A stretch of 42,754 bases of DNA from a virus. The stretch spans positions 1 through 42,754 of the IMG/VR virus record IMGVR_UViG_3300021356_000042. One strand, written 5' to 3'. Within the stretch, counting starts at the first letter, position 1. Each line of letters begins with the position of its first letter. The position numbers were made by a program, and so were the translations under genes. The notes under the pieces were generated by a model, which saw only the letters and a program-made list of their open reading frames with translations, did no database searches and was not told the DNA's origin. Shown here one piece after another: positions 1 through 38,784 of the stretch.

Positions 1-42
1 ACATCACCAAGAGCAAATTCACTATTATTCAAGAGTAGTTAA
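1..42 (+). CDS. 3' end of upstream gene (probably baseplate wedge gp6), frame unresolved
   Basis: Two frames are open from the left edge and close just before the next start. One ends at TAA 40-42 and reads TSPRANSLLFKSS. The other ends at TAG 36-38 and reads ITKSKFTIIQE. By T4 gene order the preceding gene should be gene 6. Too little sequence remains to choose the frame or confirm identity. Confidence 0.3.
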   Translation, partial: TSPRANSLLFKSS

Positions 43-8915: not shown

Positions 8916-10793
8916 ATGGCCGCCATCATTTCTGAAAAATTCAGAATCTTTAATGCTAAACAGTTTTTAGAGTCTTTATCTGAAGGCGCAACTGGCACTG
9001 AAGCAACTTCTGACGAAAGAACTAAATCCTACTTCTTCGTAGGTCGTCCCCAAAGGTGGAATGCATATCTAGAAATCTACTCAGTAGTAGGTAACTTCAC
9101 GCTAGGTGAAACAGTTTATGTCACTGGTAGTGGTATCACTGCAGCAAACTCTCCATTCCGAGCAACTGTTGAGGCAGTTTACCCAAATAGTATTCTTCTA
9201 TCTGGTGTTTTCCCTAACATTGCAGCAGTCCCTGGTATTGGTAGTCAGATTAGAGGTGATTCCTCTAATGCTACAGCATATGCGGCGGTTTACAGATATG
9301 CGACTGACGAAGTGCCTCTTCGTCCAGCAGATAATGACGAAGAAGAGAGAAGCATTCATGATGACATGATTGCTCTTAAGAGAATTGGACAAGACCAAGT
9401 AAGAGCAGTTGTCAGAAGATTCAACTGGAATCCAACTGTCAATCCTAAGTATGACATGTGGAGACCTGACTACTCTTATGCAAGAGCAGCACAGGTTGAC
9501 CCTGATGGTGCAGGTTCACTAACTCCTGCAGAATCTCTAGGAAATGCACAATACTACGTTGTTAACAACAACTACGAAGTATTCAAGTGCCTCTACAATG
9601 GTGTAACACCAGCAACTCCAGATGGCGCTAATGCATCTCTAGAGCCTAAGAGAAATCCTGGTCCTACTGGCGAAGGCGTATATGACTCAGCAAATGGCAT
9701 CTTCACTGAGTATCCTGATGTAACTAACGGTTATATCTGGAAGTATCTCTACACCATTCCAACAAATGATGTGTTGAGATTCCTCTCGACTGACTTCATG
9801 CCTATCGTTGAGGATTCTACTGTTACTACACTAGCAGCATCACAAGCAGGTTCTATTACGACTATTGTTGTCAGAGACAACGGTAGCAACTTACCTGCCA
9901 GTGAAGTTATCTACACACCTATTCTAGGTGACGGTGCAAATGGTCTTGTCCGTTTAGAAACTGATTCCAATGGTCAAATCACCACTGCATATTTGGTGGA
10001 CAATGCAGGTGCTAGAGTAAATATCAGTGGTAGTGGTTACACATATGCAAATGTGTTAATTAAGAATGGTTACCTCTATGAGGAAGCATCTCTAACCACA
10101 CCATTCTCTGTTTCTGCAAACGCATCTGGTGATGTCGAAGTTATCGTCCCACCACAAGGCGGTCATGGTGCTGATGCAATCGTTGAGCTTCTCGCTAAGA
10201 GAATTATGGCAAACATTCGTTTGACATACGCAGAAGGTCAAGGCGACTTCCCTGTAGACAACGATTTCCGTAGAATTGGCATTATCAAGAATCCTAGACT
10301 CCCTGCACCATCTACTGATTTTGCAACTCAGGACACAATCAGTGCAATCTATGCAGTTAAACTAAACAATGTTAGCGGGTCATTCCAACCTGACGAAATT
10401 GTTGAGCAAGAAGTTGCTGCTGGTGAGTTTGCTAGAGGCACTGTAGTTTCTTGGGTTTGGGATGAAGTGGCAGCAGGTCAAACCCCAACTTCAGGCACGC
10501 TAAAATACTTCCAGAGCTCTGACCTACATACTGATAACGGTGTTGTAAGAGCATTTGTTTCTGATGCAGCAAAACTAGTGACTGGTAAAACTTCACTAAT
10601 CGATGGTGCTGTAGAAACTGGTTATTCAACTGGTGGTGCAACTCTTCCTCTACTTGGTCTAACTTTTGTTAATGGTCTTGCAGTCCCCGAGCTTGCTAAA
10701 AATACAGGTGAAATTGTTTATGTTGAAAACAGAAGACTAATTACCCGTGCTCCCGACCAAATCGAAGATATCAAACTAGTCATTGAATTCTGA
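8916..10793 (+). CDS. 8: Baseplate wedge protein gp8-like
   Basis: Baseplate wedge subunit, homologous by motif and position to T4 gp8. Seen: the N-terminus ISEKFRIFNAKQFLESLSEG followed by SYFFVGRPQRW parallels T4 gp8's KFRTEKMLNFYNSIGSG and ITFGRSEPW (from memory). The conserved-looking block DDMIALKRIGQDQVRAVVRR lies near residues 149-168, followed by a WNPTVNPKYDMWRPDYSYA segment. At 625 aa it is almost twice T4 gp8 (334 aa). The extra length is mainly a beta-rich middle (about residues 300-520) with the glycine/tyrosine repeats also found in the neighbouring giant proteins. The ATG has AGGGAAAA a few bases upstream and lies behind tandem late promoters. The downstream gene is separated by 40 bases. 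Confidence 0.85.
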   Translation: MAAIISEKFRIFNAKQFLESLSEGATGTEATSDERTKSYFFVGRPQRWNAYLEIYSVVGNFTLGETVYVTGSGITAANSPFRATVEAVYPNSILLSGVFPNIAAVPGIGSQIRGDSSNATAYAAVYRYATDEVPLRPADNDEEERSIHDDMIALKRIGQDQVRAVVRRFNWNPTVNPKYDMWRPDYSYARAAQVDPDGAGSLTPAESLGNAQYYVVNNNYEVFKCLYNGVTPATPDGANASLEPKRNPGPTGEGVYDSANGIFTEYPDVTNGYIWKYLYTIPTNDVLRFLSTDFMPIVEDSTVTTLAASQAGSITTIVVRDNGSNLPASEVIYTPILGDGANGLVRLETDSNGQITTAYLVDNAGARVNISGSGYTYANVLIKNGYLYEEASLTTPFSVSANASGDVEVIVPPQGGHGADAIVELLAKRIMANIRLTYAEGQGDFPVDNDFRRIGIIKNPRLPAPSTDFATQDTISAIYAVKLNNVSGSFQPDEIVEQEVAAGEFARGTVVSWVWDEVAAGQTPTSGTLKYFQSSDLHTDNGVVRAFVSDAAKLVTGKTSLIDGAVETGYSTGGATLPLLGLTFVNGLAVPELAKNTGEIVYVENRRLITRAPDQIEDIKLVIEF

Positions 10794-24829: not shown

Positions 24830-24837
24830 AATAAATA
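24830..24837 (+). promoter_or_regulatory. Late promoter motif
   Basis: AATAAATA followed by C sits in the 44-base gap before the 69-aa gene, about 25 bases upstream of its ATG, a normal position for a T4-type late promoter. Confidence 0.6.
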
Positions 24838-24861: not shown

Positions 24862-25071
24862 ATGGCAGCAACTGATTTGAAAGCAAACTTCCAAAATCAA
24901 ATGAAGGAAATCGACGAGAAAATCCTTCAGATTCAAGGGGAGTTGAAAAAAGCAGAAGAATATAAACTTAAACTAGTTGGTGGTCTTGAGACTCTAGAAT
25001 TACTAGAGCAGCAAGATACAGCAGCACCTCCAGATGACCTAGGAGCACTGCCAGAAACAACTGAAGAATAA
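24862..25071 (+). CDS. Small coiled-coil protein, 69 aa
   Basis: Not recognised functionally. Residues about 5-50 (NQMKEIDEKILQIQGELKKA) are strongly amphipathic with Leu/Ile heptads, a likely coiled coil. The tail is short, acidic and proline-rich (APPDDLGALPETTEE). No clear Shine-Dalgarno sequence precedes the ATG. It follows a late promoter motif and is followed by a strong terminator hairpin, so it can form its own short transcription unit. It resembles the 70-aa and 72-aa coiled-coil genes in size and placement between fibre genes, but not clearly in sequence. Confidence 0.75.
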   Translation: MAATDLKANFQNQMKEIDEKILQIQGELKKAEEYKLKLVGGLETLELLEQQDTAAPPDDLGALPETTEE

Positions 25072-25078
25072 TTACAAG

Positions 25079-25110
25079 ACCCTTCTTATAAATACATAAG
25101 AAGGGTTTTC
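25079..25110 (+). terminator. Rho-independent terminator with an embedded late promoter
   Basis: An 11-bp perfect stem (25079-25089 with 25096-25106) has a 6-base loop and is followed by TTTT and then C. It starts 7 bases after the stop codon of the 69-aa gene. It is the strongest hairpin I see in the window. Its left arm and loop also contain the TATAAATA octamer. Confidence 0.8.
25087..25094 (+). promoter_or_regulatory. Late promoter inside the terminator hairpin
   Basis: A perfect TATAAATA lies at the top of the left arm and loop of the terminator. Transcripts starting about 6 bases downstream would lack the left arm, so the terminator could not fold in them. The downstream leader ATAAGAAGGGT is repeated before gene 13. 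Confidence 0.65.
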
Positions 25111-25119
25111 TTGTATCTA

Positions 25120-25455
25120 ATGGCAGCTATACCAATTAATTTGATTGTTGAGCAGAGGGCAGACTTTGAAGCAACCTTCACCATCTCTGGTGCAAACAAT
25201 GTTGCTTTGGATTTGAGTAATTTTTCAGCAGAAGCCAAAATCAAGAAAAACTATACATCTTCTACGTCAACAAATTTTGCTGTTGTATTCCTAGACAGAA
25301 CTAAGGGACAATTAAAACTGACTTTAGATTCTTTCAATACTTCTATGTTGAAAGAAGGTCGTTATGTTTATGATATTGTCATCACTAACTCAGTTGGTGG
25401 TGCAAAGCGTAGAGTGGTTGAAGGACAAGTTACTGTTACACCTGGAGTTACCTGA
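25120..25455 (+). CDS. Small beta-sandwich-like virion protein, 111 aa
   Basis: Not recognised to family. The sequence (IPINLIVEQRADFEATFTIS, later GRYVYDIVITNS and VVEGQVTVTPGVT) is a run of short beta-strands that looks like an Ig-like or fibre-associated fold, as in small phage baseplate or fibre proteins. I chose ATG 25120. An in-frame TTG at 25111 would add three residues but lies in the tail of the terminator. AAGAAGGG upstream is a possible ribosome site, with a long spacing of about 14 bases to the ATG. The stop overlaps the next start (TGATG). Confidence 0.7.
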   Translation: MAAIPINLIVEQRADFEATFTISGANNVALDLSNFSAEAKIKKNYTSSTSTNFAVVFLDRTKGQLKLTLDSFNTSMLKEGRYVYDIVITNSVGGAKRRVVEGQVTVTPGVT

Positions 25456-37168: not shown

Positions 37169-38773
37169 ATGTCTTATTCCTTTGAGAATATTACTATCGT
37201 TGGCGGTGGTTCATCTGGTTGGATGACTGCCGCCACTTTTGCTAGGTTTTTTTCTGATAAAAATATCTCAATTATTGAAAGTCCAGACTATCCAATTGTG
37301 GGTGTTGGAGAAAGCACCTTAGGACAAATTAATAAATGGAAAAGTCTTCTTGGTATAGAGGATAAAGACTTTATGCAAGAAACTGATGCTTCATATAAAA
37401 TGAGCATCAAATTTACAGATTTTTACAAAAAGGATGCAGGTGGATTTCATTATCCATTTGGAGAGAGAAGATTAATTGGTGATAATTTTGATGGATTTAA
37501 TACATGGTTTGTTAAAAAAGCATTGAGACCCGAAACCCCTGTGCAAGAATATTGCAGGGCACATTATACATCAATGCCTCTCATTGAGAATAATAGAATT
37601 TCAGATGACCCAGAAAAATATCCATTTAGTATGCAGTGGGATACTGCATATCATTTTGATGCAACAAAATTTGGACAGGTATTAAAGAAAAATTATTGTT
37701 TACCTAGAGGTGTAAATCTCATCCAAGATAGTGTTGAAGATGTAGTTGTAAATGACGATGGTATTGACCATCTAATATTAAAAAGTGGCAACAAACATAA
37801 AGCAGACTTATATATTGACTGCACAGGATTTAAGAGTTTATTGTTATCTCAAACATTGAATGAAGAATTTATTTCTTTCAATGATATTCTGCCAAATAAT
37901 AAAGCTTGGGCAACACATTTACCATATATCGATAGAGAAAAAGAGATAGAATGTTTTACTAATAGCACTGCTATCGGGAATGGTTGGTGCTGGAATATTC
38001 CTTTATGGTCTAGAATTGGCACAGGATATGTTTATTCTGACAAGTATATAACCGATGAAGAAGCATTAGAAGAATTCAAACAATATCTAATGTCAGATAA
38101 GGTTGTCATCCCTAGGACTAGAGAGCAAGTAGATGCGATGACGTTTAGACCTATCACTATGAGAGTTGGTATTCATGATAGGACGTGGGTAAAAAATGTT
38201 GTTGGCATCGGATTAGCAGCAGGATTTGTAGAGCCTCTGGAGAGTAATGGTTTGTTTACAGTCCACGAATTTTTACTTCAGTTGATGAGGACATTGCAGC
38301 GCAGTGATGTTTATACTCAATTTGATGTGGATTCATATAATTCTGCAACGAAAGAATTGTTTTATGAGTTTGCCGAGTTTGTTGCTATGCATTATTCTTT
38401 ATCAAATAGAAATGATACTGAATACTGGAGAGATGTTACTCGCCAAAGAAATAGAATGACGGATGAATTAGTTTCTAGAGTAGTAAGACCATCTAATGCT
38501 TCTTTAAAATTATCCTATGCAAAGGGTCGTGAAAATAGATGCCCTAATGATGTATATGCAGGAGATATTCCGATTGCTGCTGGTATGAATTATAATTTTA
38601 CATCAAAATTAGATGTAGAATTAAAACAGTTATTTGATGATGTAGATTATGAATCTTTGGTTGATGAGAGTAGTGCTTCATGGGATTATTGGTATTCTAA
38701 AAATTTAGATAAAGCTATGCGGTGTCCTACTCTCCACAATTATCTGAAGACTAATATTCATACAGATAAATAG
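37169..38773 (+). CDS. Flavin-dependent halogenase (tryptophan halogenase family)
   Basis: Predicted FADH2-dependent halogenase, which adds Cl, Br or I to an electron-rich carbon using O2 and a halide. Seen: an N-terminal FAD-binding motif IVGGGSSGWM (residues 10-19), VGVGESTLGQINKWKSLLG (44-62), the catalytic-type Lys in SYKMSIKF (K77), the family signature WCWNIP (W273-P278) and Glu358 in FVEPLESNG, matching the Lys and Glu known to be needed in PrnA. Length (534 aa) is normal and the gene is intact. Related viral enzymes exist: VirX1 of cyanophage Syn10 is a characterised iodinating halogenase. The gene is AT-richer than its neighbours, with more AAA, TTA and ATT codons. It lacks a clear Shine-Dalgarno and lies between an adhesin gene and gene 13. 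No flavin reductase is in the window, so a host one would be needed. Substrate unknown. Confidence 0.92.
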   Translation: MSYSFENITIVGGGSSGWMTAATFARFFSDKNISIIESPDYPIVGVGESTLGQINKWKSLLGIEDKDFMQETDASYKMSIKFTDFYKKDAGGFHYPFGERRLIGDNFDGFNTWFVKKALRPETPVQEYCRAHYTSMPLIENNRISDDPEKYPFSMQWDTAYHFDATKFGQVLKKNYCLPRGVNLIQDSVEDVVVNDDGIDHLILKSGNKHKADLYIDCTGFKSLLLSQTLNEEFISFNDILPNNKAWATHLPYIDREKEIECFTNSTAIGNGWCWNIPLWSRIGTGYVYSDKYITDEEALEEFKQYLMSDKVVIPRTREQVDAMTFRPITMRVGIHDRTWVKNVVGIGLAAGFVEPLESNGLFTVHEFLLQLMRTLQRSDVYTQFDVDSYNSATKELFYEFAEFVAMHYSLSNRNDTEYWRDVTRQRNRMTDELVSRVVRPSNASLKLSYAKGRENRCPNDVYAGDIPIAAGMNYNFTSKLDVELKQLFDDVDYESLVDESSASWDYWYSKNLDKAMRCPTLHNYLKTNIHTDK

Positions 38774-38784
38774 ATAAGAAGGGT
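38765..38784 (+). promoter_or_regulatory. Late promoter and leader for gene 13
   Basis: GATAAATA (38765-38772) overlaps the halogenase stop. The following ATAAGAAGGGT (38774-38784) is the same leader found after the promoter at 25087 and supplies the ribosome site AAGAAGGG, about 13 bases before the ATG. Confidence 0.65.

Follow-up and report, generated by a model that had tools for sequence, protein, structure and literature searches.

A predicted late promoter nested within an intrinsic terminator upstream of the tail fibre assembly gene of a T4-like marine myovirus

T4-type late promoters are recognised by gp55, gp33 and gp45, and transcription starts 6 nt past their octamer. In T4 the octamer occupies positions -13 to -6 (PMC1524935), and a -35 element is absent from the late promoters of this phage (PMC2988020). 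The late promoter reported for cyanophages is NATAAATA (review PMC2984593). Late promoters associated with an RBS-sequestering hairpin are known from T4 e, soc, 49, I-TevI/II and segB, as well as from Aeh1 mobE (PMC3014915, PMC2988022). In the class represented by e, 49 and I-TevI the late start lies inside the hairpin, so only RNA arriving from upstream folds and the late RNA stays free; the stem sequesters the SD, the start codon or both, and such genes are also part of earlier transcripts from upstream, on which they must remain silent; the known effect is translational, and a U-tract is usually missing. Citing papers describe the PeSL cassettes of T4-type phages (Arbiol et al. 2010; Comeau et al. 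2014) as small intergenic cassettes that join an early sigma-70-like promoter to a stem-loop terminator and that mediate recombination and gene shuffling (cited in PMC4503421).

The element described here lies in the virus record IMGVR_UViG_3300021356_000042, a 42,754-nt stretch (hereafter the window) that represents a 42.8-kb piece of the genome of a T4-like marine myovirus. This fragment holds structural genes only, every one of them on the plus strand. A tryptophan halogenase-like gene (phrog_2928, 37169-38773) separates the fibre genes from the neck genes. The element falls between a 69-aa gene and the 111-aa fibre-assembly gene (Table 1), in the intergenic stretch TTACAAGACCCTTCTTATAAATACATAAGAAGGGTTTTCTTGTATCTA. 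Homologs of the 111-aa protein revealed by a protein search come mainly from cyanophages (Synechococcus, Prochlorococcus), with some from Pelagibacter and Methylophilales phages. The protein search was the route to cultured relatives; a DNA search of cultured phages with the region of the element gave no match, and the exact stem was absent from all cultured genomes searched.

Table 1. Features of the element and its surroundings (window coordinates).
Feature	Position	Strand	Basis and remarks
AATAAATA, probable late promoter for the 69-aa gene	24830..24837	+	sequence, position, octamer positional enrichment; predicted start 24843
69-aa gene, phrog_580, function unknown	24862..25071	+	ORF list, PHROGs
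Left arm ACCCTTCTTAT; its final 3 bases also begin the octamer	25079..25089	+	fold
Late promoter octamer TATAAATA; predicted transcription start 25100	25087..25094	+	-13 to -6 rule, PMC1524935
Loop AAATAC	25090-25095	+	fold
Right arm ATAAGAAGGGT; bases from 25100 on predicted to stay in the late RNA	25096..25106	+	fold
GAAGGG, predicted 5' end of the late RNA, possible weak ribosome site	25100..25105	+	-5.1 kcal/mol; 14 nt from ATG
U-tract TTTTCTT, shorter than in relatives	25106..25112	+	upstream RNA predicted to end near 25109
111-aa gene, L-shaped tail fibre assembly, phrog_3304, opens the fibre operon	25120..25455	+	PHROGs
Site before gp13 (38797): GATAAATA and the same right arm ATAAGAAGGGT, no left arm	38765..38784	+	sequence, relatives compared

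The octamer is of the kind found in T4-type late promoters and lies shortly upstream of a late gene, as do the cyanophage late promoters NATAAATA, which share the same octamer and precede late structural genes; the review of these promoters makes no mention of terminators or hairpins (PMC2984593). By itself TATAAATA is no rarity in the window (5 occurrences vs 2.4 expected). Every one of the 13 occurrences of NATAAATA in the window falls on the coding strand, the other strand having none, and in eight related records 41-69% of ATAAATA and 25-46% of CTAAATA motifs are situated outside ORFs and shortly before an ORF start, in comparison to 0-11% of control 7-mers. An early sigma-70 promoter at the element was rejected, as the plus strand within 200 nt yielded no site of the sigma-70 type.

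The same bases form a perfect hairpin at 25079-25106, with 11 uninterrupted pairs and a 6-base loop. The original prediction placed the octamer in the end of the left arm and the loop of an 11-bp terminator stem, and this anatomy was confirmed: the octamer covers the last 3 left-arm bases and 5 of the 6 loop bases. The predicted RNA folding energy of 25079-25113 is -14.1 kcal/mol, whereas shuffled sequences average -3.8 (z -5.55) and none of 200 equals it; an outer stem, ACAAG/CUUGU, extends the fold, giving -18.5 for 25074-25118 (z -6.6). The hairpin ranks strongest among the plus-strand terminator-like sites between 19000 and 32000. As in an intrinsic terminator, the stable stem is followed at once by a U-tract. 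The stem is clear, but the T run extends only over 25106-25109 before C25110, giving UUUUC in RNA. The GC content of the stem is low, and the d'Aubenton-Carafa-type terminator score is only +3.0 in the window; relatives in which 6-7 U follow the same or a similar stem without a gap score about +19 to +26. With such a short U-tract and low score, termination in the window phage may be partial, and the sharp separation of the 69-aa gene from the fibre operon that had been proposed is less well supported.

Since the T4 octamer occupies -13 to -6, transcription is predicted to start at 25100, within the right arm, and the late RNA should therefore lack the entire left arm. The lack of a -35 element in T4 late promoters leaves the bases upstream of the octamer free to act as that arm. 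Together with the conservation described below, these features indicate that the 32 bases are probably a composite element in which an intrinsic terminator encloses a T4-type late promoter; RNA from upstream would stop there, and late RNA would escape. RNA reaching the terminator, at least that from the putative late promoter at 24830, would carry both arms, form the 11-bp hairpin and end, at least partly, near 25109. Polymerase with the phage late sigma factor (gp55 type) would start on the same DNA at about 25100, and its RNA, holding only part of the right arm, would form no terminator and continue into the fibre-assembly gene at 25120. RNA folded from the predicted start (25100-25160) has no strong structure (-7.2, z +1.4). 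In RNA that reads through, the hairpin may additionally mask the translation start, as is known from T4 e, soc, 49 and I-TevI.

It had also been proposed that the late RNA keeps its ribosome site free. The candidate site, AAGAAGGG in the right arm, pairs only modestly with the anti-SD (-5.1 kcal/mol) and is located 13-14 nt from the ATG, which itself lies outside the stem; among relatives the distance between right arm and ATG ranges from 11 to 19 nt. The candidate AAGAAGGG as a conserved SD is unsupported; in the resolvase version of the element described below, the right arm does contain a good SD. In its predicted start inside the hairpin, which only RNA from upstream can fold, the window element resembles the T4 e/49/I-TevI class; it differs in that its hairpin is a predicted terminator with a weak SD. 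With PeSL cassettes, as described in citing papers, it shares the stem-loop terminator and promoter within a small intergenic cassette of a T4-type phage, but its promoter is of the late type. A literature search for nested or overlapping late promoter-terminators, with most subscription papers outside its reach, found no report. Within that search, what appears to be new is the nesting of a late promoter in a terminator; hairpins with a late start inside and cassettes of early promoters and terminators were already known.

The conservation of the element was assessed in 83 distinct upstream regions of homologs of the 111-aa gene, derived from two IMG/VR scans, each restricted to the best 80 loci. 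A site was called nested when a U-tailed hairpin enclosed the octamer and at least half of the left arm preceded the predicted start, so this class has a hairpin by definition; octamers were preserved in the shuffled upstreams used as a control. The octamer N[AC]TAAATA was present in 83/83 of these upstreams, and in 30 of them it was nested, compared with 0-2 in shuffles (mean 0.7). In the protein tree, which is built on few columns and has many weak forks, nesting occurs in every member of three clades, and their stems differ. The stem of the window clade is CCCTTCTTAT, and its member L010 has CCCCTCGTAT, so that pairing is kept through two double changes. The second clade has ACCTTCC...GGAAGGT plus TTTTTT, and the third has CCCCTCGCTAAATAGTGAGGGG. 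In the relatives of the window 6-7 U directly follow the stem. Conservation of pairing and octamer in related phages, which had been proposed as a check, was observed. Together with the anatomy it supports well the core proposal of a late promoter nested in a terminator, with late RNA that would lack the left arm; the start site, termination and escape are predictions. The retention of the nested layout while the letters of the stem are replaced suggests, on comparison of related and hence not independent sequences, that the overlap is selected and the element is a real genetic switch. Apart from the clade described next, other clades have the octamer alone, and several relatives are devoid of any terminator.

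In a separate clade and in the cultured phage Melnitz-1 (L013, L015, L018-L021, L024, L035, L041, L059, L254), the hairpin before the fibre-assembly gene is not a terminator: it lacks a U-tract, bears the octamer in its loop and conceals a good SD. The SD of the sister group that includes Melnitz-1 is AAGGAG, located in the right arm. A pattern related to such RBS-hiding hairpins was encountered in 109 IMG/VR stretches.

The exact element was found in 21 IMG/VR stretches. The downstream gene is readable in 20 of them and is always homologous to the fibre-assembly gene or to gp13 (neck protein); the remaining contig (L136) ends too soon but has a leader of the gp13 type. Nesting was observed in 10 of 65 distinct gp13 upstreams vs 0.4 in shuffles; these sites comprise no fewer than five types of stem, in two geometries. 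In close relatives this position holds the complete nested arrangement, a tandem one or neither. The full hairpin precedes gp13 in L124, whose gp13 is 96% identical to that of the window, and in L326 the promoter and terminator are arranged in tandem and not nested. Given that the copy before gp13 in the window has lost the left arm and that several relatives are without a terminator, the terminator looks useful yet not essential, and it appears to turn over.

In 20 marine phage records, 26 of 456 promoter-like octamers were found in nested terminators vs 4.7 in shuffles, an excess biased upward since many of these records were picked for holding the element. The idea that every late promoter is nested was rejected on these counts, and P-HM1 and syn9 had no convincing case. 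Tandem promoters and terminators are at least as common genome-wide (25 tandem and 17 nested among 271 terminators), and nesting as the sole arrangement was rejected in view of tandem cases such as L326 and L014. In Melnitz-1 a nested terminator at 75082 separates a tRNA gene from a hub/tail-lysozyme gene, and the cultured phage DSL-LC03 carries a nested element at 9119. In three of the scanned records a nested element precedes the gene of a RusA-like Holliday junction resolvase (phrog_244). A scan of the best 80 loci for this gene gave 67 distinct upstreams, 44 with the octamer and 36 nested, in comparison to about 3 in shuffles. The order of parts is octamer, CCTCC, loop, GGAGG, U-tract and ATG; the predicted start coincides with the left-arm end or lies close to it, a geometry that differs from that of the fibre-gene element, and GGAGG in the right arm makes a good SD with a spacing of 7-9 nt to the ATG. 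Among 20 resolvase elements, 8 cells were changed on both sides of the stem vs 1.0 in column shuffles, and pairing reached 98% vs at most 64% when slid, a percentage biased by the choice of elements mostly for having a hairpin. The resolvase gene occurs in many T4-like marine phages (L517:19103-19432 (-), L545-L624) with late promoter, terminator hairpin and SD within about 35 bases.

T4 gene 49, which encodes a Holliday junction resolvase of a family unrelated to the RusA-like enzymes, arranges its parts in the order seen in the marine resolvase element. Scanning of T4 recovered genes e, 49 and I-TevII as positive controls and gave no clear case of a nested U-tailed terminator, the gene 49 site being borderline. 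Further late octamers lie in strong hairpins of T4 (NC_000866) at 71948, 77349/77371, 112042 and 144462 (L526-L533), those at 77349/77371 being opposed. In cyanophage DSL-LC03 (L404, OR003938.1 40821-40848) a strong hairpin whose loop bears a late octamer includes the start codon of an HNH endonuclease in its right arm, which recalls T4 I-TevI and Aeh1 mobE.

The T4 precedents e, soc, 49 and I-TevI raise the question of whether the hairpin is mainly a translational lock that hides the start of the 111-aa gene in read-through RNA, so that only RNA started at the late promoter is translated. The sister group that includes Melnitz-1 has such a lock at this very gene (SD AAGGAG, octamer in loop, no U-tract) and the U-tract of the window is weak; nevertheless, a run of 6-7 U immediately behind the stem is retained in the relatives of the window, and the SD offered by AAGAAGGG is modest, its spacing to the ATG being long and variable, which renders this explanation unlikely. 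It is less likely still that a terminator and a late promoter were simply crowded into a short intergenic gap and overlap without functional gain. The gaps of only about 20-50 nt, the equally common tandem arrangements and the missing terminator in some relatives agree with such an incidental origin, but nesting far exceeds the shuffle controls, whole clades keep it through stem replacement, and the predicted resolvase start falls at or near the left-arm end.

Another reading is that the inverted repeat works chiefly as DNA, either as a joint for recombination in PeSL-like swaps of fibre modules or as a protein-binding dyad. Relatives such as G007 bear copies of the element at both ends of the fibre/halogenase island, and PeSL cassettes of T4-type phages are reported to mediate shuffling (cited in PMC4503421). 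Neither a joint nor a binding site, however, needs the U-tract and start geometry that are kept while the stem letters change, nor is conservation of pairing without conservation of sequence, as already seen here, expected of them; we regard this role as highly improbable. The late promoter nested in a terminator is our preferred reading of the locus.

Beyond the window, we consider it slightly favoured that T4-like marine phages possess a recurrent class of composite switches, in which a late promoter, a terminator and sometimes a ribosome site are packed into about 30-40 bases. The late start would drop the left arm and, in the resolvase version, free a good SD, and the layout would be kept or regained at the fibre-assembly, gp13, RusA-like resolvase and tail hub genes while the stems are replaced. 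If the mechanism proposed for the locus is correct, a single short sequence terminates the upstream message and launches the next, which is not stopped by the same signal, and tightly packed phage genes are set apart at almost no cost in DNA. For annotation this would mean that terminators should be scored jointly with overlapping late octamers. In abundant marine phages the hairpin principle of T4 genes e and 49 would then reach beyond translation to transcription termination.
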